Shown here one piece after another: positions 21,077 through 57,566 of a stretch of 64,000 nucleotides of DNA (position 1 is the first letter of the stretch; each line of letters starts with the position of its first letter). The DNA lies in contig NC_088295.1 of NCBI RefSeq assembly GCF_032854445.1, positions 5,892,501 through 5,956,500 on the forward strand. The letters are read 5' to 3'. The DNA comes from Liolophura sinensis. Taxonomy: Eukaryota > Mollusca > Polyplacophora > Chitonida > Chitonidae. The notes beneath the pieces are model-generated. The model made no database searches and had not been told where the DNA came from. It worked only from the letters and a program-made list of their open reading frames with translations. Made by a program: the position numbers and the translations under genes.

Positions 21077-24000
21077 ATGTCGGGCCCAAACTGGCTAGAT
21101 GTCATCAACCTGGGGAACAGCATTATAGGGGTCAGCATACTGGCCATGCCATTCTGTTTCAAACAGGTCAGTGGTTAATCTGTATTCATTTCTTCTTAAT
21201 ATGGGGTTAACATTACCCTCAATATGAAGGCTACATGTTATTATTTTTATACATAAGGTGTATATGAATGTAATCAAATGAAAGTGTTTTGAAGTCACAT
21301 AAGCACATGCTTTTCCATGCTCAAATCTGGCCTCAGTGGTTGTTTTGTCATGTGAAGTATGTCAAGAGAAAATAATTACAGAGCAAAGCTTTCATTCCTA
21401 GCAGGCCGCTACCTGTATGGCCATATTCAGGGGTTATGTCCAACACAATGACTGTTTGGAACACACATGTAAATGACTGATGTATTATGGTGTATGATGA
21501 TGAGGAGTCATGAGATGTGCCTACATATGCTATGTCTTCTTGTGGCAGGGCGATTCCATCCCGCCACTGAAGTATCATGTCAAAGACACCAGACATGACA
21601 TCCCACCCAGTCACATTTTACTGATGTCGGCCAAGTCACGCAGCTACAAGTACCATTTTAAAGGCTGTTGTGTGAGCTGACATGTTTTTGAACTTTGACC
21701 CCAGGCCTCTTGAGGTCGATGTAACCATTATTTCAAGCGGTCTAAAATGAATCATGATAGTGCTGTTTGTTTCAGTGTGACTTAATCCTGGGTAATGTCC
21801 TGCTGTTTGTTTCAGTGTGGCCTAATCCTGGGTAATGTCCTGCTGTTTGTTTCAGTATGACCTAATCCTGAGCAATGTTGCTGTTTGTTTTAGTGTGACC
21901 TAATCCTGGATAATGTCCTGCTGTTTGTTTCAGTGTGACCTAATCCTGAGCAATGTTCTGCTGTTTGTTTCTGTGTGACCTAATCTTGGGCATGGTTCTG
22001 CTGTTTGTTTCAGTGTGACCTAATCCTGGGCATTGTTCTGCTGTTTGTTTCAGTGTGACCTAATCCTGGGCATGGTTCGGCTGTTTGTTTCAGTGTGATC
22101 TAATCCTGGGCATGGTTCTGCTGTTTGTTTCAGTGTGACCTAATCCTGGGCATGGTTCTGCTGTTTGTTTCAGTGTGACCTAATCCTGGGCATGGTTCTG
22201 CTGTTTGTTTCAGTGTGACCTAATCCTGGGCATGGTTCTGCTGTTTGTTTCAGTGTGACCTAATCCTGGGCATGGTTCTGCTGTTTGTTTCAGTGTGACC
22301 TAATCCTGGGCATGGTTCTGCTGTTTGTTTCAGTGTGACCTAATCCTGGGCATGGTTCTGCTGTTTGTTTCAGTGTGACCTAATCCTGAGCAATGTTTTG
22401 CTGTTTGTTTCAGTGTGGCTTAATCCTGGGCATGGTTCTGCTGTTTGCCAGTGCCTGGATGACAAGTGTCTCCTCCAAGCTTCTCCTTAAGGCTGGCATC
22501 CAGTCACGAAGAAGGTCATACGAATTTTTAGGTAAGGATATCTAAGTTCAAGAATGCTGAATGAGATGACGTACTGTATTTCTTCACTTTTCATAAAATA
22601 AAGATCAGTGTATTGTAAGATTTTTGAAACAGTGTTTGTCTTTATAAACATTTGTGTAGTAGGAGGACATGAATGACCTAGGTTAATTTCTATATGTCTT
22701 ACAGTTGTTTGTTCCACATACAAGACCTTGATGGAAATGCTGTCAATGGGTATTAGCTTATTTCTTCAATGATTTCATCTGATTTTCATTTCCTGTTTTT
22801 TTTCTGTATTTTCTGTTTTCAGCGTATTTTACCACGGGCCACTTTGGGAAGTTGTTAGTGGAATTAGGGTATGTTCTGTGTTTTCTGTGGCTAAGGTAAA
22901 ATTCTAATGATCCCACTGTTACCTGAATGTCACACATAACTTATGTCTAACAATAATTGTTGCTAAATAAACCGATAGCTAAGGACTTTGTGCCATGTAT
23001 GCTAAGGCATTTTTTATATGCGAACATATGTGTTATTTGTGTTGTATGGTTTTCTGGCAGGTGTATAGGTCTAAATGTGGGCTCATGTGTGGCATTCTTT
23101 GTGGTGATGGGAGACCTGGGACCAGCGATTATATCCAGGATGTTTGGCTGGGAGGTGGGTTACCTGTTATATACAGGAGTGAAAATCATTATGTTTAAAC
23201 TCATAGTCAGTGGTCTTTTTGTTTCCAAAGTTGGTACCTAGGAATATGTAATGAGTTGCAATTCGTCATATTTTCAAACAATAATGAAGTTTAGGAGGAT
23301 TTGGTGTTTAACCTTTCGGTTCTTTTGTTTACATCATCATCTCTTCTTGTTTTAAATATCTAACAAACTATCCATTGCTGTACTAGGTGTAGCCCCTTGA
23401 GTTGTAGGTTAAGTTGAAATGAAATTGTAGTTTCTGTTTTTGTTGATGGCAGTTCTTTTGTCTTGAGTATTATAATCTTGCTTGCACATGACTTTTTCAT
23501 GACTGTTGATAGATTAATCTTTAATCTGTAGATAGTAAGGCTTGTGCCTGTAGATAGTAAGGCTTGTGCCTATAGATGATCAGTCGTTCTCCAGTAGATG
23601 ATCAGTCGTTCTCCAGTAGATGATCAGTCGTTCTCCTGTAGATGATCAGTCGTTCTGCTGTAGATGATCAGTCGTTCTCCTGTAGATGGTCAGTCGTTCT
23701 CCTGGAGATGATCAGTCGTTCTCCTGTAGATGATCAGTCGTTCTCCCATAGATGATAGTTGATGATAGATGATCTGTTGACATAGTAAAAACACTTTATG
23801 TGTACACTCTGTAGATCATAATTTTTGTGTGTATAGATGATAATTCTTGTCTTTAGGAGATGTGTATAATGTCTGTACATGGTAATTTTTGTTCATAAAT
23901 GACAGAATTTATGTTTTTAGATGCTATGACTTCTTTTTGTACATCATGAACTCTGGGTCTGTAAATGGTAATCCTTGCCTATGTAAATGATAATTTGTGT

Positions 24001-27000
24001 CTCTGTGTTTGATAATTCTTGCGTCAGTTCATGATAACTTTGCTGTCTATTTGCAGAACTCAGCTCAGCTGCGCAGTGGGTTGATGGTTCTATTAGCCCT
24101 CTGTGTAGCGTTGCCATTGGGACTACGCAGAAATGTGGAAAGTTTGAGCCACTTTAGTGCTCTCTCTATAGGCTTTTATATTGCATTTATCACCTATGTA
24201 AGTATTCTCGTTGGACTAGATTGTAAACCACAGGTAACATTTACTGTTCATTCAAGGTCTTCCGTGTGATGTTTTTGTTATGTCTTGGTTAGTAATATAT
24301 CACTTACAATACAACTAACAATGTTTTACCAATGACTTGAAATAGATTAGGCTTTTCAGATTATTCAGTGTTGTAACATTGTGAATTGATTTTGCCACAG
24401 TTTTGATCAGGATAGTTCGGGTATGCTTAGTGCTTTGATATCTTCTACGGTTTAACCTCTATACTAGTGAGCTAATCTCCATCCTTGTTATTCCTCAGTA
24501 TACTGCTGATTGTGGCTTGTTCTTGTTTTTTGGCTGGTACAGATGTTTGTGGTTGCTTTCCCCACTTTGCTGGCTGGCTCATGGACAGCAAAGGTTAACT
24601 ACTGGAGGATGGAAGGACTGTTCCAGTGCCTGCCCATATGTTCATTGGCTTTTGCTTGTCAGACGTAAGTCAGTAGCTTGGCAAGCCTTAGCCAGTATCC
24701 TGTCAGATGATAATTCAGTAGCTTGGCAAGCCTTAGCCAATAGCCTGTCAGATGATAATTCAGAAGCTTGGCAAGCCTTAGCCAGTAGCCTGTCAGATGA
24801 TAATTCAGTAGCTTGGCAAGCCTTAGCCAATAGCCTGTCAGATGATAATTCAGAAGCTGGGCAAGCCTTAGCCAGTAGCCTTTCAGATGATAATTCAGTA
24901 GCTTGGCAAGCCTTAACCAATAGCCTGTCAGATGATAATTCAGTAGCTTGGCAAGTCTTAGCCAGTAGCATGTCAGATGATAATTCAGTAGCTTGGCAAG
25001 CCTTAGCCAGTAGTCTGTCAGATGATAATTCAGTAGCTTGGCAAGCCTTAGCCAGTAGCATGTCAGATGATAATTCAGTAGCTTGGCAAGCCTTAGCCAG
25101 TAGCCTGTCAGACGTAAGTCAGTAGCTTGGCAAGCCTTAGCCAGTAGCATGTCAGATGATAATTCAGTAGCTTGGCAAGCCTTAGCCAGTAGCCTGTCAG
25201 ATGATCATTCAGTAGCTTGGCAAGTCTTAGCCAGTAGTTTGTCAACTAAGTCGGTAGCTTGGCAGGTCTTAGGCAGTGGCCTGTCAATTAAGTCAGTAGC
25301 TTGAGAACTCTGGCAGTAGGCTGTCAAACTTAAGTCAGTAGCTTGTCAAACGTAAAGCAGTAGTTTGGGAAGTCTGGCAGTAGTCTGTCAGGCATAAGTC
25401 AGCAGCTTGCCAAGTCTTAGGCAGTAGCCTGTCACACATAAGTCAGTGGCTTGGCAAGTCTTAGGCAGTAGCCTGTCACACATAAGTAAGTAGCTTGGCA
25501 AGTCTTAGGCAGTAGTTTGTCAACTAAGTCAGTGGCTTGGCAAGTCTTAGGCATTAGTTTGTCAACTAAGACAGTGGCTTGCCAAGTCGTAGGCAGTAGT
25601 TTGTCATCTAAGTCAGTGGCTTTTCAAGTCTTAGGCAGTAATTTGTCAACTAAGTCAGTGGCTTGGCATGTCTTAGGCAGTAGTTTGTCAACTAAGTCAG
25701 TTGCTTGGGAAGTCTTAGGCAGTAGTTTGTCAACTAAGTCAGTGGCTTGCCAATTCTTAGGCAGTAGCCTGTCACACATAAGTCAGTAGCTTGGCAAGTC
25801 TTAGGCAGTAGCCTGGCACACATAAGTAAGTAGCTTGAGAAATCTGGCAGTAGACTGTCAAACTTAAGTCAGTAGCTTGGCATGTCTGGCAGTAGCCTGG
25901 CAGACATAAGTCAGTAGCTTGGCATGTCTGGCTGTAGCCTGTCAGATTTAAGTCAGTAGTGTAGTAAATCTTAGGCAGTAACATATCAGACATAAGTCAG
26001 CAGCTTGACAAATTAGGCAGTAGGCTGTCAGCTGAGTCAGTAGCTTGACAAGTCTGGCATGGGCTTGTCAAATGTAAGTCAGTATCTTGACAAGTCTTAG
26101 GCAGTAACCTATGAACTAAGTCAGTAGCTGTACAAATCTGGCAGTAGACTGTCAAAAAGTCAGCAGCTTGGCAAGTCTTAGGCAATAGCCTGTCAACAGC
26201 ATCAGTAGCTTGCCATCTGACAGTGGCCAGTCAACGACATGTATTAAGTCACTAGCTTGGCAAAGTCTTAGGCAGTAACCTGTCAAATGTACATGTAATT
26301 CAGTAGTCTGGCAAGTTTTTGGCAGTCACTTGTTGGACATAAGTCAGTAACTTGGCCAATCTTCAGCAGTAGCTTGTCAACTAAGTCAGTAGTAACCTGT
26401 CCAATGTGTCAGGAAAGCATACGTCAGCATCTGGGCAAAGTATTAAAGGCACCTAAAGTCAGTAGACTACAAAACCTAAGTCTGACTCAGTAGACTGCCA
26501 AACATATTGTTTATGTTTACATGGTGTTGAACATTGTTTTGACTGTTGTTTCCTTTTTCTCCTCCAACAGGCAGTTATTCATTATCTATGATTCTTTACC
26601 GGAGCCGTCCCTGAAGACCATGAGCTCAGTGGTCAGTGGAGCAATCAATCTGTGTACAGCTGCCTATCTTCTGGTACATATCTCTGCATAGTGAATTTGT
26701 GGGAAAGTCTGTGTTAACGGGCTCTGCAGAAACATGTGACGTGTTGAAAGCATTACTGAGGAAATCAGGCAGTGCAAGGATATGTAGTGTGTGCAGTTGT
26801 GATGTTTCATATTATGTGCACTATAACAGGTTAAGCTGATCAACAGCATGATGGACTTTTTGATTCTACGTGTACATTTTGCTGTGTTATAAAATATTGT
26901 CATATATTGTTAAAATGACTTCATTAACTTAGAATCAGTGAATGATTATGGTTTAATGCCACATCGGTATGTGGGAAGGCATGCCAGCAACCTGTGGATG

Positions 27001-30000
27001 GGCATGGCTTTCCCCCAAGCTATGCCGGGTTTCCTCCCACCATAATGCTGGCCGCCGTCGTATAAGTGAAATATTCTGGAGTACGGCATAGAACACCAAT
27101 CAAATAAGTAAATAACGCCATATCTGCAATATTTCAGTCCTATTGTTGTGGCATTGGCTTTAATAAGTAAAATAATTTTGAGTATGGCATGGAATACTGT
27201 CAAGTAAATAAATGTACCCACACACTTTTAAGTTGGAAATGCAGAATTGAGAGGTTGGGGAATTTTTTATATAATTATGGCCACCCCAGTTCAATTGTTG
27301 TTTAACAGGCACAAATAATGTTTTTTGATATCGGAGTTGGGTATAAAAATACAACTTGAAAATCATCTTCTTTGTGGAAATTGTAGACTGCTTTCGCATT
27401 TTTTCCTGTTGATGACTTATTTACATGACCACAAAACCTGACATCAAGATTGGACTGGATAAAATAGGGGATTTTCAGTTTTAGATTTATTCTAGTTTTG
27501 GATTTTTTTAGTGTTAGCTCACCCTTAAAACACAAAATAAAGTTGGTGTCACTTCAGGCAAAAAAAACAAAACAATGTTGAGACAAACACTAAGGGATTA
27601 TCCTGGACAGGGCAATATTCTTCTGTGGTTTATCAACTGAGAGTTAACATGTTTTTCTTTTATAAACACCTTTTAGTTCCACTGGTGGTTTGTTTGTTAT
27701 AAGTTGTCAGTATACATGTATATCAATGTTAAGCTGGATTTTTGATTTTGTCTCTGGATACTGGCATATGTGATATTTCTTTACCAGACTGGGTTTTTTG
27801 GATATGTGGCATTCTCGGACCAGCCCTTGGGAGGAGATGTTCTCACACTGTTTCCCGAAACTCTGTTTTCTGAGATCATGAAGCTGGGCTTTGTCTTGTC
27901 TATAGCCATCAGTTTTCCTCTGGTGATTTTCCCATGCCGAGCTGCTGTCTTCACGCTCTTCTTCCCTCAGGTAAGTATCACAGTGCGCATCCAGATTTTG
28001 GATATTGTGCTACTTTTGGTTGTATTTGTTTTTCACTGCAGTATTGTCTTCATTGTTCATTAATGTGAGGAATTTAAGTATGTAAAGAATTGATCAGGTT
28101 CCAGTTTAACTCTGCATTCTTTCTTGTTAACAACTTTCATGTACATGTCCACTTTAAAGTTTTCCTAAAATTCTGAATTAAAAGTTCAACCAAAACTCTG
28201 TGTGATTGTTTTCCACATTATTGTGTATATATATATATATATATAGTGAAATGTCAGGATTTCCTTCGCTGATAAATATCTTATTTCACATGTTAGATGT
28301 CACTTGAGTTATTACATTTTCATAAATCACACATGGATGTCATGACGTGAAAATAGGAACATTTTGTTTTATCTGACAGTACAGCTCAGTAGGATGACAT
28401 CATAGTTCAAGTTTAGTTAAATGTAACATTCTTGCATCATGCAACAAGACAGAGCATCATGCAAGACATCATGCAACAAGACAGAGCATCATGCAAGACA
28501 TCATGCAACAAGACAGAGCATCATACTAGACATCTTGCAACAAGACAGAGCATCATACAAGAAATCATGCAACAAGACAGAGCATCATACAAAACATCAT
28601 GCAACAAGGCAGAGCATCATACAAGACATCATGCAACAAGGCAGAGCATCATACAAGACATCATGCAACAAGACAGAGCATCATACAAGACATCATGCAA
28701 CAAGGCAGAGCATCATACAAGACATCATGCAACAAGGCAGAGCATCATACAAGACATCATGCAACAAGGCAGAGCATCATACAAGACATCATGCAACAAG
28801 ACAGAGCATCATACAAGACATCATGCACTACATCATGCTGTATACAAATCTGTGAAGGTCAACTACTAAAATATTGTTCAGATACACAAAATCATCATAT
28901 CGTGAAAATAAATAATAAATAAAATGTTGCACAAGTGAGAGGTGGAAATGATAAGGCACAGGGTACTTCAGGGGTTATTTCCACATCTCACTCCAGCAGT
29001 ATTTATTTAGAGTATTTAACCTGCACTGTGCAATATCATCCATTGTTGTGTGGGCAAGGAAGTCTCTGATCTAAATGCCTCAATCTGTACAAAAAGACCC
29101 ATTGCTCACTAGTCAGAGTGTTTCCAGCAGAGTGTGACCTGTTTCTAATCAATGCCTAGACCCCATGAAAATCTTATGGTTCAAGTTTAAAACAAGCCAC
29201 TATAAAACCAACAATTATCCAGGGTCTTTTTAGCCTACTATATACTGAGTGGTTTGTAATCTTTTTCTCTATTTAATGTTTCTGATATATAACAAATGAA
29301 TGTGTATTTTTTCAGAAACCCAAATCTCGGGATGACTTTGGGGAAACCAACAGGATACCTGACATACATTTCCGTGCTATTACATTTACTATTGTAATTG
29401 GCACTTTAATAATTGGCATCCTGGTACCCAATGGTGAGTTTGTAATAGACAGTGTTTTTTTGGTTAGTCTGTTTTCTTGGTGTCCATTGGTGAGTTGGCC
29501 GTATTTCAGTATCCTAGTACCCAGTGGTATGTTCTTCACGGTTATTATCTGGGTGCATCGGAAGCACATTGAAAGTGGTACAGCCATTCTGCTGAATGGT
29601 GACCTAATCAGTATGTAATAGACATCATATTTTGAATGAAATATTACAGAATCTTGTCTGTGTGTACAGACATATCTTTATAGTCTTCATAATACATTTT
29701 TGGTAATACTAGGAGAACATTTTGTCATGCACACAATGTCATGATTTGCTTACATGTGACACCTGTTTTATGTTGACAGTGGAGTTTGTTCTCGGCATGT
29801 GTGGGGCTACCATGGGAACTCTGATATCCTATATCCTACCTGCAGTATTTTTCATTAAGGTCTCTGCAAGTCTCAGTGATGGCAAAGGCTTAGCGAGGGT
29901 AAATATCTTTGGTTTTGCTAATGTTATGCGTGTAACATGCTATCAATGTGGCAATACAACCTGATAAATTAGATCTCTACAACACTGAAGGATACACTGT

Positions 30001-33000
30001 GGAAAATCCTAGGTGGTTCATATGCCCATAAGATTGCTGTCTCACAGGTTTGCATGAGCTACTTGACTCACCATTTTCATGAGCAAAATGCTGATGATGT
30101 GCACTTAGCTTGTATGGCCTGTGTCACAGGTTTGCACGAGCTACTTGACTCACCATTTTCACGAGCAAAATGCTGATGATGTGCGCTTAGCTTGTATGGC
30201 CTGTGTCACAGGTTTGCATGAGCTACTTGACTCACCATTTTCACGAGCAAAATGCTGATGATGTGCGCTTAGCTTGTATTGCCTGTGTCACAGGTTTGCA
30301 CGAGCTACTTGACTCACCATTTTCATGAGCAAAATGCTGATGATGTGTGCTTAGCTTGTATGGCCTGTGTCACAGGTTTGCACGAGCTACTTGACTCACC
30401 ATTTTCATGAGCAAAATGCTGATGATGTGTGCTTAGCTTGTATGGCCTGTGTCACAGGTTTGCACGAGCTACTTGACTCACCATTTTCACGAGCAAAATG
30501 CTGATGATGTGCGCTTAGCTTCTATGGCCTGTGTCACAGGTTTGCACGAGCTACTTGACTCACCATTTTCACGAGCAAAATGCTGATGGTGTGCGCTTAG
30601 CTTGTATGGCCTGTGTCACAGGTTTGCACGAGCTACTTGACTCACCATTTTCACGAGCAAAATGCTGATGGTGTGCGCTTAGCTTGTATGGCCTGTGTCA
30701 CAGGTTTGCACGAGCTACTTGACTCACCATTTTCACGAGCAAAATGCTGATGATGTGCGCTTAGCTTGTATGGCCTGTGTCACAGGTTTGCACGAGCTAC
30801 TTGACTCACCATTTTCACGAGCAAAATGCTGATGATGTGCGCTTAGCTTGTATGGCCTGTGTCACAGGTTTGCACGAGCTACTTGACTCACCATTTTCAC
30901 GAGCAAAATGCTGATGATGTGCGCTTAGCTTGTATGGCCTGTGTCACAGGTTTGCACGAGCTACTTGACTCACCATTTTCACGAGCAAAATGCTGATGAT
31001 GTGCGCTTAGCTTGTATGGCCTGTGTCACAGGTTTGCACGAGCTACTTGACTCACCATTTTCACAAGCAAAATGCTGATGGTGTGCGCTTAGCTTGTATG
31101 GCTATCAGAGTAGAAAACCATGTTCTCAAACAAATTCATAGTATCGTTCCCTCTTCTCAACATATGTGCTGCCCTGCAGGTTGTTGCTCTGGGAAAATCC
31201 TTTGATTAAGTAATTCATGTATTTGTTTGATTGTTGTTAAATGCAGTGCTTGAATTGTCACATACTGTCTATGTAGAAAGTTTTATGGGTAGAGGAGACC
31301 TGATAGCCCTGATTATACCACCAGCCTTTGCCAAGTGGTCTCCAGTGAACTTCTTTAACTTCTTAACCAAGACCTTACAATAATGAAAGTTAAATATAAT
31401 GAAATAACAAAAAATTGTCCAAGTCAAAGATAAGCGAGTAGACAGCAACCAGATGGTTCCATATGAGGGTTCCATAGTGACTGTAAAGGTTGTAAATTTA
31501 CCATAAGCAGATATATATAGAGTCTTATACTCTAATTCTTGAGGATAAATGGAACTCGAGCCACCTTTGTGTCAACGGAGGGTGGGTGGTGGTTTTCTGT
31601 GGACTGTCCCAAATCTCTTGTATCCCAGCAACGAATGTCAGGAACATCTTATAACCACAGCCATGACCCACGCAGTAGCTCTTACAGCAACGAATGGTAG
31701 GACCATCTTATAGCCACTCAGCCATGACCCACTCAGTAGCTCTTACAGCAACGAATGGTAGGAAGATCTTATAACCACTCAGCCATGACCCACTCAGTAG
31801 CTCTTACAGCAACGAATGGTAGGAAGATCTTATAACCACTCAGCCATGACCCACTCAGTAGCTCTTACAGCAACAAATGGCAGGAACATCGTATAACCAC
31901 TCAGCCATGACCCACTCAGTAGCTCTTACAGCAACAAATGGCAGGAACGTCTTATAACCACTCAGCCATGACCCACCCAGTAGCTCTTACAACAACGAAT
32001 GGGAGGAACATCTTATAACCACTCATCCTTGACCCACTCAGTAGCTTTTACAGCAACAAATGGCAGGAACATCTTATAACCACTCAGCCATGACCCACTC
32101 AGTAGATCTTACAGCAACAAATGGCAGGAACATCTTATAACCACTCAGCCATGACCCACTCAGTAGCTCTTACAGCAACAAATGGCAGGAACGTCTTATA
32201 ACCACTCAGCCATGACCCACCCAGTAGCTCTTACAACAACGAATGGGAGGAACATCTTATAACCACTCATCCTTGACCCACTCAGTAGCTTTTACAGCAA
32301 CAAATGGCAGGAACATCTTATAACCACTCAGCCATGACCCACTCAGTAGATCTTACAGCAACAAATGGCAGGAACATCTTATAACCACTCAGCCATGACC
32401 CACTCAGTAGCTCTTACAGCAACAAATGGCAGGAAGATCTTATAACCACTCAGCCATGACCCACGCAGTAGCTCTTACAGCAACAAAAGGCAGGAAGATC
32501 TTATAACCACTCAGCCATGACCCACTCAGTAGCTCTTACAGCAACAAATGGGAGGAAGATCTTATAACCACTCAGCCATGACCCACTCAGTAGCTCTTAC
32601 AGCAACAAAAGGCAGGAAGATCTTATAACCACTCAGCCATGACCCACTCAGTAGCTCTTACAGCAACGAATGGCAGGAACATCTTATAACACCTCAGCCA
32701 TGACCCACTCAGTAGCTCTTACAGCAACGAATGGGAGGAAGATCTTATAACCACTCAGCCATGACCCACTCAGTAGCTCTTACAGCAGTGAATGGCAGAA
32801 ACGTCTTATAACCACTCAGCCATGACCCACTCAGTAGCTCTTACAGCAACGAATGGGAGGAAGATCTTATAACCACTCAGCCATGACCCACTCAGTAGCT
32901 CTTACATCGACATGGCAGGAACATCTTATAACCACTCAGCCATGACCCACTCAGAAGCTCTTACAGCATGTTGATGTTACAGCTGGTTTGTATTATGAAT

Positions 33001-36000
33001 GTAACAGGTAGGTCTGTATTTGTTAGCTGTTTGCTGTTATTATTATATTGTTTCTTTCATCGTTTTATTATGTTGATGTTACAGTTTTGTGTTACATGTA
33101 GTTGTGGGCTCTCTGGTCAGCACGTTGTTGTTGCAGTTTGTTTTAGTCGCCGGCTGCCTGATCTGTGTCATCAGTACCCACACCACATGGACCACCCAGA
33201 AGCAGGTGACCATTGACAGTGTTAACCCTCAGAATGCCAATCTCATGCCAGACAACAAACTGAAGGAGAAGGGGCTGCAGAATGCTGTGGACGCCAAGCC
33301 TGGTTAGTGACTTATTCATGGCCAGTCTTTGTGCTTTTGCCTGTTTTAATCCCTAGGGCAAAACTTTCCATATGTCCATGTAACATTATGAGTTTTCTGG
33401 TCAAGCCAATTAAAATCCATCTTCCACTTCAAGGCTCTGTTTACTTTTACAATATTTAAGTCGTCATTGTACATTTTTGAATAGGTGAGGTCGGAGCAGC
33501 TGTGGACAGAGCAGCTGTGGAGAAGCAAGAAGACCCTGGGGGAGGACTAGACAAGGCCAAAGAGGCTCAAATTGAGTCACCAGATAAACCAGACAATAGC
33601 AAAGGTACAGGAGTAATATATGAAGGTTATTCTACAGCCAGTCCTTGACCGAGTGGAATTGTTGTAATCCTATGTCTGTCTATCTGTATGCCCGTTTTGG
33701 TTTTGAGCTTTGGTTGTGAGCAGCAGTTTCTAGGTGTTAGTGCAACTTCATGTTTAATTCCTGGCATTCTGTTTTTGTCTGTGACCTTCATCTGTCTGAG
33801 ACCCAAGAATTGATGTAATCTCCTTTGAGGTAGTTCTGGCATAGATCTGTTACTTTGTGTCGAGTTAATTGATAAAGCAGTTGTAAACTGTTTGATTTTT
33901 GGAACAGCTTCCTCAAGCCATAGCATGATAATATATTTATTTATTTGATTGTATTACACCATACTCAAGAATACTTCACTTATACAAAGACAGTCAACAT
34001 TTCATGGTGGGAGGAAACTGGGCAAAAACCTGTGACCATCTACAGGCTGCTGACAGACTTAGCCACATACATGTACAACCAGAGAGGAAGCCAGCATGAG
34101 CTGGACTTGAACTCGCAGCAAGTCACCAAGAGTCATTGGCCTGAACTAGTATGCTAACTTCAAGGTGATGTTTTGCCTGAAACAATTAAATCATGGCATT
34201 GAAATGCATTTGCAAGTATCTTTGTGTATTTTCACTTATAGTGAAAGATGATAAAGATTCTGTGAAAAAGGAAGAAGGACGACAAGAGCCTCCCATACCC
34301 CATGCACCCCCTGATGAGGTAAGCAGAAATGTAATGTGTAATATTTATTTATTTGATCCTTTCATTTGTCAGGTACCTGACAAACCTTCTGACATCAATT
34401 CACAGTGAGAGTCAAATGTTGGCTTATTGGGCTGCAGATGAACAATGCTTAAGCTAAATGAGCCAGTGCGGGCCCTGAAATGTAACATACACTCATAAAG
34501 TACCCTAATCACCTCCTGATGAGGTGGGCTAGAACAGAAATGTAATATACACTGGCACAAAATCCCATTTACCTCTTGATGAGGTGGGCTAGAACAGAAA
34601 TGTAATATACACTGGCACAATATCCCATTCACCTCCTGATGAAGTGAACTGGAACAGAAATATATTATACACTGGCACAATATCCCATTCACCTCCTGAT
34701 GAGGTGGGCTAGAACAGAAATGTAATATACACTGGCACAATATCCCATTCACCTCCTGATGAAGTGAACTGGAACAGAAATGTATTATACACTGGCACAA
34801 TATCCCATTCACCTCCTGATGAAGTGAACTGGAACAGAAATGTAATATACACTGGCACAATATCCCATTTACCTCCTGATGAGGTGAACTGGAACAGAAA
34901 TTTAATACACACTGGCACAATATCCCATTTACCTCCTGATGAGGTGGGCTAGAACAGAAATGTAATATACACTGGCACAATATCCCATTCACCTCCTGTT
35001 GAGGTGAACTGGAACAGAAATGTAGTATACACTGGCACAATATCCCATTTACCTCCTGATGAGGTGGGCTAGAACAGAAATGTAATATACACTGGCACAA
35101 TATCCCATTCACCTCCTGATGAGGTGGGCTAGAACAGAAATGCAATATACACTGGCACAATATCCCATTTACCTCCTGATGAGGTGAACTGGAACAGAAA
35201 TGTAATATACACTCACACTCCACCCCATTCACCTCCTGATGAGGTGGGCTAGAACAGAAAAGTAATATACATTCACACATTATCCCATTCACCTCCTGAT
35301 GAGGTGGGCTAGAACAGAAATGTAATATACATTCACACATTATCCCATTCACCTCCTGATGAGGTGAGCTAGAATAGAAATGTAATATACACTTACAAAG
35401 TACCCTAATCACCACCTGATGAGATGAGGAAGAATAGAAGTGTACTATACACTCACACTCAACCCCATTCACCTCCTAATGTGGTGGGCTAGAACAGAAA
35501 AGTAATATACACTCACACTCCACCCCATTCACTTCCTGATGAGGTGGGCTAGAACAGAAAAGTAATATACATTCACACATTATCCCATTCATCTCCTGAT
35601 GAGATGAGCTAGAACAGAAATGTAATATACACTCACACAGTATCCCATTCATCTCCTAATGAAGTGAGCTAGAACAGACATGTAATATACACTCACACTG
35701 GGCCCCATTCACATCCTGATGAGGTGGGCTAGAACCATCCTGTCAATAGGCCTTCCACAAAGAAGTAGAAAGCATTTGACTTTTAGGCTTCATGGCAAAC
35801 ATGTATTGAATAAATACATGAAGTTTCGAATAAGGTACTACGTGTATTGTTGTAATCATCATACTTTGGTAGATCAGAAAAGAATATGTGTCTTTTTCTC
35901 ATCTCAAAATTGGATCTTTGACGTTTTGATGTCTCCTTTTTCTAGCCTAACGACCAGAAATCTGATAAAGACAGTGATAATAAAGATAAAAAGGAAGAGA

Positions 36001-38218
36001 AAGGTGAGCTAAAAAATAGTGGTAAGGACAAAGAAAAGAAAAAAGAAGATGACAAAATAGTTCGGGACTCAAAGAAAGAAGATGTGAAGGCTGCAGAGGA
36101 CAAGGCTGAAAAACAGGGGAATGCTGGGAAGGATGAGGCAGCCAAAGACACAGGTGTTGAGGAAAAGAAGAAAAGCAAAGTGGGAGAGGGAGTGGACAAA
36201 GATGTGATTGACAGGAATGAAAGAGAGGCTGAAAAAGAGCAAAGGGAAGAAGATAAGAAAAAACAAAAAGAGTTAATACAGAAACTAGAGGAACAACATG
36301 AGAGTCAGAAAAAACTCATTGAAGAGGAGAAGAAAATTCTTGAAGAACTTAAACAACATCGAAATGAGGTCCACCTCAAGCCGGTAAGTACTATTTGGCA
36401 TGTGGGGTGCATATTTGACATGTGGGGTGCATATAGAAAATTTCACCATTATATATCTCTATTTGGGTTATTTAGTATATTCTGTCTGTTTCTCATCTAA
36501 AACATGGTTTTGTGTTTTTCTAGGGAGACCAGCCGGGCAGCAAGGAAGATTTACCCCAGCAAGGAGGAATAGCACAACAGGGTATGGCTCAACCTGGCTT
36601 GGTACAACAACAGGGTATGGCTCAGCCTGGCTTGGTACAACATCAGGGTATGGCTCAACAACAAGGTATGGCTCAACCTGGCTTGGTACAACAGCAAGGT
36701 GGTGTTCAGCAGCAAGCTGGCTTGGCACAACAACAGGGTTTAGCACAGCAAGTGCAACAGCAGGGTGTCATGCCACAACAGGGCTTGGCTCAACAACATA
36801 GAATTGCACAGGGTGCAATGCAACAAGGTGTAGCACAACAGCAGGTTGTCTTGCCAAAACAGGGCTTGGCTCATGCACAAGGAATGGCACAGGGTGTGGT
36901 GCAACAAGGTGTAGCAGAGCAGCAAGGTGTAGCACAACAACAAGGTGTAGCTCAGCAGCAAGGTGTGGTGCCGCAGCACGGTTTTGTGCAGCAACAGGGT
37001 GCAGCCCAACAACAAGGACAAGTGCAGGCAAACTTACAAGGAGTTCCCCAGCAACAACAAAATCTGGCATTCCAACAAGCTGTGGTACATCAACAGGGAG
37101 TGGGACAGCAAGGTGGGGCACAGCAAGGCATCGTCCAGCAGCAAGCTGTACCACAACAGCAACATTTGGCACAGCAGCAGGGCCTAGCAGAAGGACAAGG
37201 TGGTGCACAACAACGGGTTTTGTCCCAACCTGGCCAATCAAAGCAGGGATATCCCCCACAGGAGGACTTGGCTCAGCAACCATTTGTAGCACAACAAGGA
37301 CTGGCTCAGCAACAGGGAGTGGTTCAGCAAGTGCAGGGAGGGGCACAGCAGCTGGTCCAGCAAGGTGTAGTGGCACAACAGCAGCCAGTTATGGGTCAGC
37401 AACAGGCAGCTCAGGGTCAAGCACAGCAAGTTGTGGGCCAGCAACAGCCACTTATGGGTCAGCAACAGCCAGTAGTGGGTCAGCAACAGCCAGTTGTAGT
37501 TCACCAACAACCAGTTGTAGGTCAGCAACAGCAAGTCATTGGTCAACAACAGCCGGTTGTGGGACAGCAACAGCCAGTTGTAGGTCAGCAAGTTATAGGC
37601 CAGCAACAACCAGTTGTGGGACAGCATCAGGAAGTAGTGGGCCAACAGCAGCCGGTTGAGGGCCAACAGCAGCCACTGGTGGGCCAACAACCGCCAGAGT
37701 TAGGCCAGGAACAGCAGCAGGGATTGGGTCAACAGCCAGCTGTAGTCCAACGGCAGGAATTTGTTGAACAGGCAGGACTAGTTCAACAAGGTGTAGCACA
37801 ACAACAGGAAGTAGCACAACAACAGGGTGTAGTGCAACAACAAGGTGTAGCACAAAAAGAAGCAGGAGTGCAACAGCAAAAATTAGCACGAAATCAGATG
37901 ATGGCATCTGATAGCAAGCAGGAAAAACTAATAGGTGGTGTTGATGGCGTAAACAAACAAGATAATGAAGGCCAGGAAATACTGGAGAATTTGGGAATTG
38001 ACTTGCCGGTGAAGGAGGTAGGCAAACAGCACGGGGAACAACAACAGCATCAGGACGTTGACCTGAAGAGAAAGAAGCGGGACGTAGGTCGAGGGGAGCA
38101 TAACTTCCCAGATATTAGTCAACAGATCAGCGACGACATGGCCGCAAAGGACAAACTGGAAGTAGAAGTTATCGGACGTGATTTAAAGCATGTGGGGGCG
38201 ATAAGGTCCAGTAAATGA
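21077..38218 (+). CDS. SLC38A10: SLC38A10-type sodium-coupled neutral amino acid transporter, ~1209 aa
   Basis: Fifteen exons with consistent phases: 21077-21166, 22414-22531, 22823-22868, 23061-23154, 24057-24197, 24543-24664, 26571-26673, 27788-27970, 29316-29433, 29780-29898, 33137-33302, 33485-33604, 34242-34318, 35946-36383, 36524-38218. Residues 1-~400 form the ~11-helix transporter core: [17 protein letters not shown], then [45 protein letters not shown]. Exon 13 has PPIPH. Exon 14 is Lys/Glu-rich and ends in a coiled coil ([20 protein letters not shown]). Exon 15 (from residue 646) is a Gln-rich repeat tail ending in a basic LKRKKRDVG block. The coiled coil and basic block match human SLC38A10 (about 1119 aa) as I recall it. 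The family carries Gln, Glu, Ala and similar amino acids in internal and plasma membranes. At least seven tandem arrays occupy its introns. Confidence 0.92.
21765..22453 (+). repeat. 40 bp minisatellite made of the exon 2 splice acceptor
   Basis: Seventeen copies of CTGCTGTTTGTTTCAG followed by TGTGACCTAATCCTGGGCAT and GGTT. They begin at 21776, 21816, 21856, 21894, 21934 and then every 40 bp to 22414. The last copy is the real 3' splice site and first codons of SLC38A10 exon 2 (TGTGGCTTAATCCTGGGCATG, Cys-Gly-Leu-Ile). Almost all upstream copies read TGTGAC (Cys-Asp). One copy (21974) has lost its AG (CTG). The unit is not a multiple of 3. Confidence 0.95.
23521..23760. repeat. 22 bp minisatellite in SLC38A10 intron 4
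   Basis: Nine or so copies of GTAGATGATCAGTCGTTCTC plus CT/CA, at a 22 bp period. They are preceded by two copies of GTAGATAGTAAGGCTTGTGC and followed by degenerate GATGAT units. Confidence 0.85.
24650..26460 (+). repeat. ~45 bp minisatellite grown from the SLC38A10 exon 6 donor
   Basis: The real junction TGTCAGAC|GTAAGTCAGTAG (24657-24676) is followed by tandem units that repeat the end of the exon and the start of the intron. An identical junction recurs at 25107-25126. The regular 45 bp part runs to about 25250 with TGTCAGATGATAATTCAGTA variants. Beyond it the array decays to 30-50 bp units such as TGTCACACATAAGTCAGTAG. GT is lost in most copies (ATAAGT, CTAAGT, TTAAGT). 45 bp is 15 codons, so spurious open frames arise on both strands. 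Confidence 0.95.
26945..27115 (-). mobile_element. Dispersed GATTGGTG repeat in SLC38A10 intron 7, reverse orientation
   Basis: The reverse strand reads TTATTTGATTGGTGTTCTAT, ACTCCAGAATATTTCACTTA, TACGACGGCGGCCAGCATTA, GTGGGAGGAAACCCGGC. The far end is diverged. A second short fragment follows at about 27160-27215. Confidence 0.75.
28430..28830. repeat. 32 bp minisatellite in SLC38A10 intron 8
   Basis: About twelve copies of CATGCAACAAGACAGAGCAT plus CATACAAGACAT, with AAGGC/AAGAC variants. It has no exon-derived sequence. Confidence 0.9.
30043..31101. repeat. 82 bp minisatellite in SLC38A10 intron 10
   Basis: Thirteen copies at an exact 82 bp period (starts 30043, 30125, 30207 ... 31027). 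The unit begins CACAGGTTTGCACGAGCTAC and contains CTCACCATTTTCACGAGCAA. Copies are >95% alike, so amplification or homogenisation is recent. No exon segment was recognised in the unit. Confidence 0.95.
31626..32966. repeat. 61 bp minisatellite with a 244 bp higher-order duplication, SLC38A10 intron 10
   Basis: About 22 copies of a 61 bp unit: CAGCAACGAATGGCAGGAAC, ATCTTATAACCACTCAGCCA, TGACCCACTCAGTAGCTCTT, A. The variant ACCCACCCAG occurs at 31971 and again at 32215, exactly four units later, with matching flanking variants. A four-unit block was therefore duplicated. Each unit contains a CTCTTACAG acceptor-like string. Confidence 0.95.
33935..34150 (+). mobile_element. Dispersed GATTGGTG repeat in SLC38A10 intron 12
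   Basis: Starts TTTATTTATTTGATTGTATT, then ACTCAAGAATACTTCACTTA, GTGGGAGGAAACTGGGC, CCATCTACAGGCTGCTG, ACAACCAGAGAGGAAGCCAG and CATGAGCTGGACTTGAACTC. It is nearly full length compared with the 51915 copy. Confidence 0.8.
34490..35745 (+). repeat. 60 bp minisatellite derived from the SLC38A10 exon 13 donor
   Basis: Twenty-one copies at an exact 60 bp period. The unit contains CCCATTCACCTCCTGATGAG|GTGGGCTAGAACAGAAATGT. This matches the real exon end and donor, CCCATGCACCCCCTGATGAG|GTAAGCAGAAATGTAATG (junction at 34318/34319). The array begins about 170 bp after the real donor and ends about 200 bp before exon 14. Most copies carry GTGGGC or GTGAAC at the donor position. At least one (near 35365) carries GAG|GTGAGC, close to donor consensus. 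Confidence 0.95.
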
Positions 38219-41708: not shown

Positions 41709-42033
41709 ATTAGTCTAATGTTAAATGGGATATTGTATTGCAAAATATAAAGGTATAAAATATAAATCTTTTTATATTGGGACAACTGTTTAGCGGATTG
41801 AATCTGATATAGATCGTACATTTGGGAGAGATTCTGTAATGAAAATATGAGTGAAGTACGAAATCCGACGGGGTCCTTATGAACGACTGTCTATATCACA
41901 GACACTGGTGACGAAATACCCATGCCAAACCCTTAATTGGGGCCTTATTTACCACAGCCAATTGGCAGGGGGCGGAATGCCAACTGGCAAGTTAAGTCTA
42001 AAAGTAGGGGTGGTGCTGACGGAATGTCCAAGC

Positions 42034-51306: not shown

Positions 51307-51729
51307 TGGGTCGGCCCCATACATACACCACCCACGTGACCCTTACGGTTTACTGGTCACATTATGCTTCCCGGTTTGATGCGGTAACCCCCTCATTCTT
51401 AACGCAGTAGCAAGACCCGTTCTTAAACTAAAGCACAAACATTCAGGTTATAATCTTGAACGCACATGATGATGCTCCTATAGGATCTATAGATGTGAGG
51501 GCATGTCGCCTTACATGTATTTATAGGTCGAAATTTTAAAAAAATGATGATAGGCCTATTTATCGACGCCATAATGGAGAATTATGGAAAAAACGTCCAA
51601 TCGAATTTTTACTGCTATTTTAGAATAGCCCAAATAATTACCTCTTCACAATTAACATTGTGAGTGCGTTTAAATTCGGATTATAACTTTTCGAAAGTTT
51701 AGAGTAATTTTAACACTATAAATAGTACA

Positions 51730-51902
51730 TGTACGATGTAGCCTACACTTCTGACATTTACTGAATTCAAACGTGCGGATTGTCGGGTGTTTCCTTCGGG
51801 CTCTGCCCTGTTCCCTCCCATCATAATGCTGTTCGAAGTGGTATAAGCGAAATATTCTTGAGGAAATTTACGGCGTAAAACACCAGTCAAATAAATAAAC
51901 AA
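51730..51902 (-). mobile_element. Dispersed GATTGGTG repeat, reverse copy
   Basis: The reverse strand reads TATTTGACTGGTGTTTTACG, CTCAAGAATATTTCGCTTAT, AGCATTATGATGGGAGGGAA, AGGGCAGAGCCCGAAGG. It contains a small insertion (AAATTTCCT) before CTCAAGAA. Confidence 0.8.
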
Positions 51903-51914
51903 ATGAAGTACCGA

Positions 51915-52150
51915 ATTTATTGATTTATTTGATTGGTGTTTTACGATGTACTGGTTCCCAATAATATTTTACTTATTCGATGGCGGCCAGCATTATATAT
52001 TGTGGGAGGAAACCGAGCAGAGCACGGTGCGTACCCACGATCGACCATCTGCAGGCTGCTGGAAGACCTTCCTACATACGACCGGAGATGAAGCCAGCAT
52101 GGGCTAGACTTGAACTCACAGTGACTACATTGTTGAGAGGCTCCAGAATT
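51915..52150 (+). mobile_element. Dispersed GATTGGTG repeat, forward copy, head to head with the previous one
   Basis: TTATTGATTTATTTGATTGG, TGTTTTACGATGTACTGG, GGCGGCCAGCATTATA, GTGGGAGGAAACCGAGCAG, ACCATCTGCAGGCTGCTGG, GAAGCCAGCATGGGCTAGAC. This is the longest copy at the 3' end in the window. Confidence 0.8.
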
Positions 52151-52364
52151 TTAGTTCAAATATCACAGCACGTAAGAACTACTACCTTCTATATCTAGCT
52201 ATAAATTTACAACTCTGTATTGGTCTCACCAGAAATTGAACTCGGATCTCCATAGCTGAACTCCAGAGCTTTATCGACTTAGTTAAAGGTCAGTTGCCGT
52301 TTGGAACGCATGATGCCTCCTGGTAAAGGTGCCCAAAGACTGTGAAAGACAAGCAACAACTTAT

Positions 52365-52480
52365 ACAAACCCACGAATGGTCGTAGGTTTCCCCGGGGTT
52401 CTTCCTGGGTGTCCCTACAATAATGCTCACAGTCGTCGTGTGTTCTAAAAGAAGTGAAATATTCTAAATAAAAACACTAT
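52365..52480 (-). mobile_element. Degenerate GATTGGTG repeat fragment
   Basis: Reverse-strand resemblance through the CCCACGAATGGTCGTAGGTT, GGTTCTTCCTGGGTGTCCCT and ACAATAATGCTCACAGTCGT segments. The TTGATTGG end is lost. Confidence 0.6.
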
Positions 52481-53247
52481 GGTGTTCAGGCCTAATTGCG
52501 GGAAAATTCCATAGAGATGGCTGCATGCAAATCCCTCTTTGGGCCTAACCTTAGAATTACCTTAATAAAATGTTAACGTTAACGAAATCCGAGCCGAGTA
52601 TGTCCGGGTCATGCGGGGACTTGTGTATTGGAGTTCTAAGCCAAAAGTTATGCAAAATGCCCCGGTTTCTGCAACCTAGGGGCACACCTAGGCCTACACG
52701 TCGTCCTACATGCACTTCAAAACTAAATTCCATCTGTTTTATTACATGCAGTGGTAAACTAGCTGATTCGAAGTTTGGCATGTTAACGGCTACACCGGTG
52801 TTTAGAATAGGGTTCTCTTTAAACCTAATCCAGATAAATACTGCGCAAAATTCCTCTGAAACGTAAGTTCGGTTAAGTTTTATTATGACACACATGTAGT
52901 TTTGTAGGACTACGTACTATTGCAGAGAGAGCAACATGTCAAATAAGGTTAGATTATAGTGAAACATTTGTTGAACACTCTGATTTGCTATATTCTAAAG
53001 CAGCCAGGCAATGATGATGGCTGTTACATACATATACACACATACATACAAAATATAATTCTATGGTAATAAGTACGTCATATTTCATGGCGCTGCATTA
53101 AGTGCTAACGTGTATTACGTTGTACATGTACATATATCTAACGCGCTTGTCTAGAGTAGCCTCCCTTTAAGACGTTTCCTCAAAAGAAGTTGAATAAGTC
53201 CATCTTGTCAACCAACGCAGCAGTCGATCCGGTCGGCCGGGTTAAAA

Positions 53248-56200
53248 ATGGTTTCAGTGAGGACTTCCACCTTACTGATCAATCTTTTCATTTTCTTTGC
53301 CATTCTTAGCACACTTCTAGGAACTTTTCTGGCGTTGCCATTTTTTATAGCAGCTGTGGGATGTCTATTTTATTTCCGCTTTGATCAAGTGGAAAAAGAG
53401 GCGTCCGATGAAATCTTGGTATCGAGAAAAGGCCCACATATCATAGCTCACCGCGGCGCCAGTCTAGATGCGCCTGAAAACACTATCGAAGCATTTAAAC
53501 TGGTAATTGTTTGTTCTGACAGTTCTCTTTCATAGTTGACGGATATGCACAAATGAGTGTAAGTTGTATTGTTCCATGCAACACAGCTAACTTGAAGACA
53601 CAAATAACTTATTTAATCTGGTTACCGGTATGATGTTCAGTTCCTGTCATTTGTCCATTTTTAAGTGAAATACATGTATGTACCACCTCATAAATACAAC
53701 CTTAAGATGCACAAAATGGTGTTCTCGGTCGACTGTTCAGACAAAATCAGTTTTCAGGGCGTGATTTCAGAGGCTGTTAACAAAGAGAGTGAACGGGTAA
53801 CATTAACGTCAAACGTAACTGTCATGACGACACATACTGTAGACATATGTTACCATAGTAATGTCACTTTACGTAGTGTTACACCTTCTTTATAACAGGA
53901 CCCCAGGCTGTTATATTTTAATATTTTTAGAAAATAAACACAGCAATGAAATGAGTGGCCTTGTGAAGCTGCATGTTGGGATTATGTGTGACATTGTCTT
54001 TTGATGGTAGGCTTGTAAAAATGGTGCAACTGCAGTCGAACTGGATGTCGAATTTACACGGGATGGTGTGCCAGTAATATTACATGACAGTACAGTTGAC
54101 AGGACAACTAATGGCACAGGAGAGATCAGCAGCTTTACTCTGCCAGAGCTTAAGGTTCTTAGGGCATCTGCTATCCACAGGTAATCTTCTGCTTAGGTGA
54201 TGATGATGTGGAATAACTTCATTATGCAGGATTATTTTTAAACACTGGTTCTGGGTGTAAAAATATGAATTCTAAACTGACTTGCTTGTACCTTGAAAAT
54301 ATTTTATTTATGTATTTATTTCATTGTATTTCATATTGCTGTACTGAAGAATTTTTCACGGATATCATTTCATTTAGTTTAATGAGTGGTGGAAATGATC
54401 TAAAATACTCCAAACTAATCATGCATGTTAAGTGTTATGAACATGTCTTGCGTACACTGTCCTATGGTATATACAGTTGCTTCCCAGTAGTCCACTTCTA
54501 TTTTCATGAATGTTATATTTGTATTTGCAGCAGTAGATTTCCTGATGTCCGCATACCCACCTTAGAGGAAGGTGTCAGACAATGCTTGCACATGGGAATG
54601 AAGATTTTCTTAGATTGTAAAGGCATCAATGCCTCAAAAGTAAGATTCAGTAGAAAGTTATTGTTTGGAAATGATATACCTCATCATTTAGATGTGGATA
54701 ATGGTGTAATCTGGCAGTAAACAAGGCTTGAATGGATCAATTGGTGTATGACATGCTTGTTGCTAGTGTTTCACTCAAGCTGCTATGTCATTGTTTGTCA
54801 GTATAGTACCATCAGTGAAGTAAAGTATGTGTTGACTATGTTTTAATGACTTTTCTCCTCTTTTCTTTTTAAATGTGGTTACACGTGTACATGCATTAGC
54901 TTTTCACTAAGTACATGTAGCATACTTTGATCTGACTTGCAGACTGCTGACACCATTGCAAATCTCTTCCAAAAGTATCCAGACTTGTATGGAAATGCTG
55001 TTGTTTGTTCGTTCAACCCATGGATTATTTTGAAGGTAAAAAAATTAATAAAACAAAATGAAGGTTGTTTAGGTCAGTTTGCATGTTATGTTTTTTTGTC
55101 TTGATCCAAGTATAGTTATACAGTCTATACCTCTCAAAGCACAGTGAGCCTAGATTTCTAGATTCTAATATTATAAGTAATAATATTGTTTTATTCCAGA
55201 CATATACAAGTCCATGGATATAGAATAAAAATTGCAGCTGTCTGTGTGTTCACACAATAATCTGTCAGTTTAGGCAGTGTAGGTTATATTCTTGTGTGAC
55301 CATATTCTAGTCTACAGAATTTGATTGCTTTTTCATAAGCGGTCACAAACATGGACATTCTTACATGTTCTGATTGCTGCTGTTATGTATGACTATTTAA
55401 CGTCTTCATGTACTGTTAGTCTGCGGACCTTTGTGTTATATGTTATAAGCATAACAGGCCCTGTTATATATGTACAGTGCGGACCTGGCCGAAAGCACCT
55501 TGTTCAATGCTCTGTTTATTTAACTGGATGTTCATTGGCTGTTAATTCTGTGTCTAAGAATAGTTGAATCCACCTGGCACGTATATAAGCCGTGTTTTCT
55601 GTGCAGAGTGGAGGTATTTTTTGCTGCATCCACTGGGAGCCAGGAGAGTGTGCGACGCTCTCGTATCGAGTCCATTATTTTGATATGAGCTGGTGATGCC
55701 AGTTTCATTTGGGAGGACAGTTTTTTATGCCGGCACCGTTTATGTACCACAGTAGTACTGATGTCTGGTTTATGTGAATTTCTGCGGAAGTCACGTTTAT
55801 TGGTGTTCGGATCTTGATTATGATTATACAGTGTGGACTGTGTAATTTGTTTAACACGCTGACCTCACCTGACCGACAAGGTCGTCAAGGACTCTAAACT
55901 GAAGTTTTCAGTTTTGCAAAGGACGTTCGTTCTGCCACAAGGTGACATTACTCCACGTCTCTGAACGGCTCGTTTGTGAGCTTCTGCGGGAGCTGTGACT
56001 GATCTGAAGTGGATTATACCTCCATGCCTGTATTTACCCTGTGTTGTGCTCTGCGGGTGTGACGTCATTCAAAGGCTTGACTGTTCCAGTTCTGTGTAAC
56101 CTGTGTACTGTGTTCGTGTTCGCTAACCTGGCGAAGTACCTGTCTAGGACAATTTGTGACTTGTGTGAATTGTGTGTTTATCCCATGGTCTTTACATTGG

Positions 56201-57566
56201 ATTTCCTGGAATACATTCCTTGGGATGCAAAGGTGAACTGGAAACTTGTAAAGACCGGTAATACTGATGTGTATGTTGTTGTTGTTGAACTGTCTGTAAA
56301 ACTGTACGTCTCATTTTATATATAAAGCATTGTTTACATTGTAATATTGAGTCACTGAGTCTGTTTTCTGTTGCCGTTTTCAATACCGTAACACTGCCAA
56401 CTGCTCATTACTATGTTGTTTCAGGTTCGCAGAAGAGATCCCTTGATCGTGACAGCTCTGACACATCGTCACCATTTTCTCTCTATTAAGAGCCCAGGAT
56501 CAGATGAACCACGATTTGCTGAGCGATGGAAACAGTTTTTGGCAGGTCCATTGGATATGCTGTTAGAGTGGAGTCATAATTCCTGGCTTTGGTATCTCTG
56601 TGGTAATTCTGCTTTCCTGGCTCACATTGACCAGGTGTCTGTGTAAGTACACACCTTCCAGTTGCACATTGACCAGGTGTCTGTGTACATGTAGGTACAC
56701 ACTTTCTTTCTCACACTGACCAGGTGTCTATGTACATGTAAGTACACACTTTCTGGATCACATTGACCAGGTGTCTGTAAGTACACACCTTTCTGTCTCA
56801 CACTGACCAGGTGTCTGGTTCATGTTTCACATTGACCAGGTGTCTGTGTAAGTACACACCTTTCTGTCTCACACTGACCAGGTGTCTGGTTCATGTTTCA
56901 CATTGACAAGGTGTCCGTGTAAGTACACACATTCCTGGCTCACATTGACTCACATTGACCAGGTGTTTGTAGTTACATATTTTTGTAATTTGATTTATTT
57001 ATTTATTTGATTCATGTTTTACGCCATACTCAAGAATATTTCACTGATACAATGGCGGCCAGCATTATCGTGGGAGGAAATTGGGCAGAGCCCAGGGGAA
57101 ACCCACGACCATCCGCAGGTTGCTAGCAGATTTTCTGATTTTAACTGCCAAGCTGTCAAAAATTGCACACCTCCCTTAAGACCAACTCTGAACATATGTT
57201 TGTAATAAGGTATTTATTTTGTGATTTGTTTATCTTGTGTCATTGATTTTCATGTCATTCTCGGTTTAGAAGTTCAGCTTAAATCTGGGGGCCAGAGACT
57301 TTGAAGAGGTAGTAATTAAAATTAGTGTTGAGAAGTTACCTGTATATATACATATATAGCCATATATCTACTTCTGTTATTATGTATTATGTGTGCATGT
57401 TTTCAGGAACTATGTGAATGGCTGGCGTGCCCTGGGTGTCAGCGTTTTGGTGTGGACAGTGAATGAGCCACACCAGAAGGAGATGTGTCTGAAGTCTCTA
57501 GGCTGTCCCTATCTCACTGATACACTGACAGATTCAACAACTAAACAACACTCCAAGAGGGAATAA
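53248..57566 (+). CDS. GDE1: Glycerophosphodiester phosphodiesterase 1, 334 aa
   Basis: Six exons, 53248-53502, 54011-54180, 54531-54639, 54943-55035, 56425-56642 and 57407-57566, all joins in frame. Residues ~8-45 are hydrophobic, one or two membrane segments as in GDE1. The GDPD catalytic core follows: IAHRGASLDAPENT (His68-Arg69), VELDVEFTRDG (Glu95, Asp97) and VILHDSTVDRTTNGTG (His110), the residues known to bind metal and act in catalysis. C-terminal parts also match GDE1: VVCSFNPWII, VTALTHRHHFLS, WYLCGNSAFL, VLVWTVNEP, YLTDTLTDS. The family hydrolyses glycerophosphodiesters such as glycerophosphoinositol, releasing glycerol 3-phosphate, and is membrane-bound. Length matches the human protein (331 aa). 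Exon 3 has a tandem NAG acceptor. The donor of exon 5 has seeded a tandem array. Confidence 0.94.
54300..54420 (+). mobile_element. GDE1: Degenerate GATTGGTG repeat in GDE1 intron 2
   Basis: TTTATGTATTTATTTCATTG, TACTGAAGAATTTTTCACGG and AGTGGTGG follow the order of the repeat's first ~90 bp with many substitutions. Confidence 0.45.
55462..56393 (+). mobile_element. Possible solo LTR in GDE1 intron 4
   Basis: About 930 bp starting TGTTATATATG and ending CAATACCGTAACA, so it has TG...CA ends and a short TGTTA/TAACA inverted pair. Inside is a TATA-box-like CACGTATATAAGCCGTG followed by G/T-rich sequence, as in an LTR promoter. TATATAAAGC lies near the end. No clear target-site duplication was found (GGCCC before, CTGCC after), and no gag/pol sequence is present. 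Base composition differs from the AT-rich intron around it. Confidence 0.4.
56610..56965 (+). repeat. GDE1: Minisatellite grown from the GDE1 exon 5 donor
   Basis: The exon end and donor, CACATTGACCAGGTGTCTGT|GTAAGTACACACC, are followed by about eight imperfect copies of the same junction at 30-50 bp spacing. Some keep an intact GTAAGT (near 56780, 56843 and 56918). Others read GTACATGTAAGT or GTACATGTAGGT. Confidence 0.93.
56995..57130 (+). mobile_element. GDE1: Dispersed GATTGGTG repeat in GDE1 intron 5
   Basis: TTTATTTATTTATTTGATTC, ATGTTTTACGCCATACTCAA, GAATATTTCACTGATACAAT, GGCGGCCAGCATTATCGTGG, ACCATCCGCAGGTTGCTAGC. Truncated at its 3' end. Confidence 0.8.

Follow-up and report, generated by a model that had tools for sequence, protein, structure and literature searches.

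The tandem arrays that repeat exon-intron junctions in the analysed region are interpreted as mirage-type minisatellites, which arose, with a probability of about 0.75, by chance duplication of a junction primed by microhomology and by later expansion, the edge copy being held by selection and the inner copies tolerated as decoys. The gene structures, the content of the repeat units, the microhomology at clean array edges, the unequal decay of splice sites, and the sharing of an array among paralogues were observed directly.

Sequence Sample and Array Detection

The window, a stretch of 64 kb (positions 5892501-5956500), was chosen for its junction arrays and analysed together with the adjoining 200 kb (L009-L028), giving a total of 264 kb. 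Coordinates above 64000 run on from the window into L009 and beyond. Arrays were called with TRF, and those with units of at least 12 bp were classed as minisatellites. In total, 67 such arrays occupied 52.4 of 264 kb (about 20%), and within the sample introns had a somewhat higher array density than other sequence. All array copy numbers were obtained from one assembly and depend on it. The exons of SLC38A10 and GDE1 were rebuilt by hand using splice sites and reading frame, and domains were assigned by Pfam. An array was taken as junction-spanning when at least 6 bp of its unit lay on either side of an exon-intron junction. The intron set comprised 62 curated introns from eleven genes or paralogues, and 63 after the last chitinase intron was added. 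Candidates discarded for want of a supported exon were a junction hit at 216611 and several whose exon score was about 10-12. A gene finder with coding potential masked in arrays placed the exon edges wrongly at arrays 1 and 4; junction arrays can drag exon ends away from their true position, which calls for caution in annotation. The features are listed in Table 1.

Table 1. Genes, exons, and junction arrays of the analysed region; a caret marks the splice junction
Feature	Coordinates	Strand	Description
SLC38A10 gene, 15 exons	20990..38218	+	single open frame, canonical GT..AG introns, Pfam Aa_trans
Array 1	21761..22447	+	17 copies, 40-bp unit, intron-1 acceptor and 34 bp of exon 2
SLC38A10 exon 2	22414..22531	+	opens with 34 bp that form the last, coding copy of array 1
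SLC38A10 exon 6	24543..24664	+	last 8 bp TGTCAGAC and donor AGAC^gtaagt open array 2
Array 2	24657..26412	+	about 39 copies, 41-45-bp unit: exon-6 end, donor, intron start
SLC38A10 exon 13	34242..34318	+	end CCCCCTGATGAG^gtaagc, very likely founder of the array-3 unit
Array 3	34477..35735	+	21 copies, 60-bp unit with copy of exon-13 end and donor
GDE1 gene, 6 exons	53248..57566	+	single open frame, GT..AG introns, Pfam GDPD
GDE1 exon 5	56425..56642	+	last 31 bp and donor CTGT^gtaagt make up the first copy of array 4
Array 4	56612..56949	+	about 7 irregular copies: GDE1 exon-5 end, donor, intron start
GRIN-F E8 exon	181125-181215 = L020:7125-7215		array L020:7200-7520, 35-bp unit
GRIN-D E8 exon	209419-209509 = L023:5419-5509		decayed run in intron L023:4884-5418
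GRIN-C E8 exon	227910-228000 = L025:3910-4000	-	junction inside array L025:3510-3923

Junction Arrays in SLC38A10 and GDE1

The original prediction had placed four arrays on exon-intron junctions of SLC38A10 and GDE1, and TRF recovered all four close to the predicted sites. Both genes and their junctions are real: the exons join in frame across canonical GT..AG introns, and the proteins gave full-length Pfam matches to Aa_trans (SLC38A10, 4.8e-50) and GDPD (GDE1, 5.1e-37). Unit content confirmed the predicted division into one acceptor (array 1) and three donors. In arrays 1, 2, and 4, the units were certainly born from the adjacent exon edge. The same is very likely true of array 3, whose unit matches the exon-13 edge but which begins 159 bp after the genuine donor (34318/34319), not contiguous with the exon.

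The unit of array 1 is GCTGTTTGTTTCAG^TGTGACCTAATCCTGGGCATGGTTCT, the caret marking the exon-2 acceptor of SLC38A10 (22413/22414), which lies within the array and gives an in-frame exon join. The array contains 17 whole units and a 9-bp overhang, TGCTGTTTG, which is the microhomology of its two edges (exon GGTTCTGCTGTTTGCC vs intron GCTGTTTGTTTCAG, 9 bp). The word GCTGTTTG is present both at the end of intron 1 and in exon 2, 40 bp apart, and short direct repeats of this type are able to seed slippage. Inner copies are homogenised (TGTGACC...), and the coding edge copy reads TGTGGCT... (GGC vs GAC) and encodes an in-frame CGL. Among the inner acceptors, 14/16 score like real acceptors; if those upstream were used, a stop would follow after 42-114 nt.

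The donors of arrays 2 and 4 are likewise located inside the repeats, at 24664/24665 (exon 6 of SLC38A10) and 56642/56643 (exon 5 of GDE1). In array 2, the GT was lost in most copies, and five donors besides the genuine one exceed the 5th percentile of real donors. Array 4 has a unit of 40-47 bp with a 71-bp higher order, and four of its copies score at least as high as the genuine donor. Read-through from either exon reaches a stop no more than 3 nt past the genuine donor. Positions -23 to +33 of the exon-13 edge aligned with the unit of array 3 at a score of 29, a value reached at 17/2651 random array-flanking positions. The donors of array 3 exceed the 5th percentile of real donors in 17 cases, none being stronger than the genuine one, and read-through from exon 13 meets a stop after 87 nt. 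Reading into the arrays thus ends in stops, and correct proteins therefore need the edge copy; the host frames are intact only when this copy is used.

The introns of SLC38A10 also contain arrays of other than junction origin (23526-23756, 28435-28838, 30037-31102, and 31626-32968). The last exon of the gene (window 36524-38218) encodes a long Q-rich tail of imperfect in-frame coding repeats with lengths of 18, 21, 42, 63, and 81 bp.

Arrays at a Shared Donor of NMDA-Receptor-like Paralogues

Two further detectable junction arrays (GRIN-C and GRIN-F) and one decayed array (GRIN-D) were found in the adjoining 200 kb. All three occupy the corresponding donor, that of exon E8, in a gene cluster whose proteins match Pfam Lig_chan and which we take to be of the NMDA-receptor type; the E8 donor was located by alignment of the paralogues. 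The GRIN-C unit (82 bp) carries the exon end GGTGCACCGA(C/G)GG^GTAAGG and a tail resembling a piece of a SINE; the array edges share the microhomology TGGTG, with one mismatch at the far end. In GRIN-F, the array occupies the entire intron, its edges share CATGG, and some copies are stronger than the genuine donor, as in array 4. The GRIN-D intron retains decayed copies of the GRIN-F exon-edge unit that fall below the TRF threshold, the best internal copy scoring 17 (300 shuffles: mean 9.0, maximum 16). The E8 intron of GRIN-E was examined for the exon-edge unit, and none was seen. The 82-bp unit of GRIN-C contains a degenerate 35-bp unit, and therefore a single ancestral birth at E8, inherited by the paralogues and later re-expanded in one of them, is the simplest reading and probably the correct one.

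A recurrent SINE-like element (TTTATTTGATTGGTGTTTTACGCC..GGCGGCCAGCAT) was noted at L025:3480-3560 and at positions 57000-57140 and 51920-52120 of the window; it is reminiscent of molluscan SINEs. The far breakpoint of the GRIN-C array apparently came from one copy of this element. Exon E6 of GRIN-F (L020:4082-4370) contains an in-frame 93-bp array repeating 31 codons. GRIN-F may be a pseudogene, since it has stops in E1 and E10.

Other Tandem Arrays

The units of the four window arrays, searched for in the 264 kb, matched at their own loci only, and an origin from a dispersed element was rejected within this sample. An intronic array of LITAF1 (L009:2517-3869, 33-bp units) begins at intron position +3, against the donor; it was rejected as a junction array, its unit being without an exon edge. 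At 60251-60788 of the window (- strand), the C-terminal coding end of a LITAF-like exon and its stop codon region (CPNCENHVGVYR..) are repeated in a 74-bp array; here, a terminal exon was amplified, not a splice junction. The last chitinase intron contains a 3-kb array with a 30-bp unit (window 43191-46173), which on the gene strand forms some 80 pyrimidine tracts, many of them with a terminal CAG, shortly before the real acceptor. Its derivation from that acceptor was rejected (score 13). Elsewhere in the genome, CAGGTAAGG occurs in every 54-bp unit of a 6-kb array (G000:C1:1375435-1381670), and many more donor-word arrays occur in the first 4.3 Mb of C1.

Frequency of Arrays at Splice Junctions

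The number of junction arrays was compared with chance after collapsing each array to one founder unit, the null being founders distributed uniformly over introns. For 23 intronic arrays in 62 introns, 2.3 junction-spanning arrays were expected and 6 were seen (P = 0.012); with the last chitinase intron (25 arrays, 63 introns), 2.5 were expected (P = 0.023), and P rose to 0.083 when the E8 arrays were counted as one birth (five independent births). These values apply to a local sample selected for the effect. Outside SLC38A10 and GDE1, 2 junction arrays were found vs 1.3 expected (P = 0.38). Because the window was selected for its arrays and so little excess is left outside the discovery genes, the local data do not establish that arrays occur at junctions more often than by chance, and any such excess is at most modest; nor do they establish the original view that four arrays within 36 kb lie far above chance.

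A word test was performed on the whole genome (609 Mb), in which triple occurrences of an 8-letter word at array-like spacing were counted per 1000 single occurrences. The donor word MAGGTRAG formed triples at 46.0 per 1000 (4859/105692) for units of 28-58 bp and at 53.3 per 1000 (5628/105692) for units of 59-89 bp. Three control words of equal composition ranged from 18.1 to 28.1 per 1000: the reverse of MAGGTRAG (18.5 and 18.1), AGRTGAMG (21.6 and 21.0), and the reverse of the latter (28.1 and 24.9). For CAGGTAAG, 41.3 per 1000 were obtained vs 22.9 for its reverse, and for the acceptor word TTTYCAGG, 11.5 vs 6.6 for its control. Over-representation in arrays is thus about 2-2.5-fold for donor words and 1.7-fold for the acceptor word, in counts that are dominated by a few large arrays and combine real junctions with look-alikes.

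Both data sets bear on the alternative that array birth is favoured at splice sites, for example through R-loop-linked breaks or pausing at exon edges, with junctions several-fold over other intron positions. Such a splice-site-targeted process formed part of the original prediction, and the six local arrays and the raised counts of donor and acceptor words argue for it. Against it, the local excess is driven by the genes of discovery, and the paralogue cases are explained by one inherited origin. The word test is also non-specific: within the 264 kb, MAGGTRAG triples come solely from the purine-rich array antisense in the chitinase intron, and the word is absent from all six real junction arrays. 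The higher density of arrays in introns and genes would by itself raise donor-word counts. The twofold genome-wide excess of donor words leaves room for a real bias, and the word test makes a junction bias possible without demonstrating it. Overall, targeting of this kind is regarded as unlikely, and it is doubtful that the genome has a real, several-fold bias of tandem duplication starting at active splice donors. A special splice-site-targeting process is not needed to explain the arrays.

Origin and Fate of the Junction Arrays

The preferred reading, chance duplication followed by expansion, involves the following steps. In a minisatellite-rich genome, a stretch of 35-80 bp that happened to span an exon-intron junction would have been duplicated in tandem, the initial duplication being primed by short direct repeats at both ends of the stretch. 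Either slippage or unequal exchange would then, as we infer, have enlarged the array. As every unit has a single exon edge, new copies would be added towards the intron, and the genuine copy would remain the one adjoining the exon body, held by selection on the protein and the splice site. Inner copies would be homogenised and free to lose the splice site, as in most of array 2, or to retain it, as in array 1. Exchange at exon-edge microhomology, another element of the original prediction, is supported by homologies of 5-9 bp at the three clean-edged arrays (array 1, GRIN-C, and GRIN-F), the only ones at which microhomology is clear; erosion has affected the remaining edges. Among 32 high-identity arrays, partial-copy lengths showed only a weak skew towards small values.

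The spliceosome presumably uses the edge copy, and mis-spliced RNA, if any, would be destroyed. In the cases examined, use of a wrong site would truncate the protein, and the copies would therefore be tolerated decoys rather than working sites. The opposite reading, that they are decoy or alternative splice sites or splicing-factor sponges maintained by selection, draws on the 14 inner acceptors in array 1 and the 17 donors in array 3 that score like real sites, and on human IFI6, which employs repeat copies as donors according to the account of Turri 1995 in PMC4526556. It is very improbable: GT is gone from most array-2 copies, the use of copies yields early stops, homogenisation alone suffices for the likeness of the copies, and amphioxus mirages leave splicing undisturbed by RT-PCR (PMC3087553, PMC3902484). 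Misassigned junctions or an assembly error, with repeats merely resembling exon edges, would agree with the assembly-dependent copy numbers and the separation of array 3 from its exon but are scarcely credible against frames that close exactly, full-length Pfam matches, and an E8 donor set by paralogue alignment.

Comparison with Known Systems

Junction-spanning minisatellites have been described in gene-by-gene reports, mainly from amphioxus, and the arrays found here are additional cases of this known but little-studied phenomenon, the mirages. With six detectable cases in 264 kb, one at the same donor of several paralogues, the region is a natural laboratory for studying how the spliceosome chooses among as many as 17 near-identical acceptors. 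A possible link of array birth to splicing and a possible shift of exon edges by arrays are further questions for the region. If true, a donor-initiated duplication bias would link transcription or splicing to minisatellite birth, perhaps also in other minisatellite-rich genomes.

Intron gain by tandem genomic duplication (PMC4974935, PMC3443670) likewise involves a duplicated segment carrying a splice signal; however, the copies described here are located inside pre-existing introns, the frames are continuous, and neither a new exon nor a new intron between duplicated AG/GT was found. The human IFI6 (6-16) minisatellite is also a tandem repeat carrying a splice donor beside an exon. Two of its downstream units serve as donors (Turri et al. 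1995, as cited in PMC4526556 and PMC3618361), whereas the use of copies in the present genes would usually truncate the protein.

The closest counterparts are the amphioxus mirages, known from globins (PMC3087553), PGBD5 (PMC3902484), troponin C as cited there, and Adh3 (Canestro et al. 2002 NAR, as cited in PMC3087553), in which 5' and 3' boundaries are both duplicated and splicing was reported to be undisturbed (PMC3087553, PMC3902484). For amphioxus Adh, variation in array length is reported as well. In both systems, several genes per genome carry a minisatellite-like unit that spans a 5' or 3' boundary; here, it spans the genuine boundary in arrays 1, 2, 4, GRIN-C, and GRIN-F, and in array 3 by homology. 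Both boundary types are also duplicated here (the acceptor in array 1, donors in the others), GT/AG is kept by many but not all copies, and homogenised inner copies are distinct from edge copies. The present arrays differ from those of amphioxus in their host genes (SLC38A10, GDE1, and NMDA-receptor-like genes), in reaching up to 39 copies with units of 35-82 bp, and in the presence of one array in decayed form in a paralogue.
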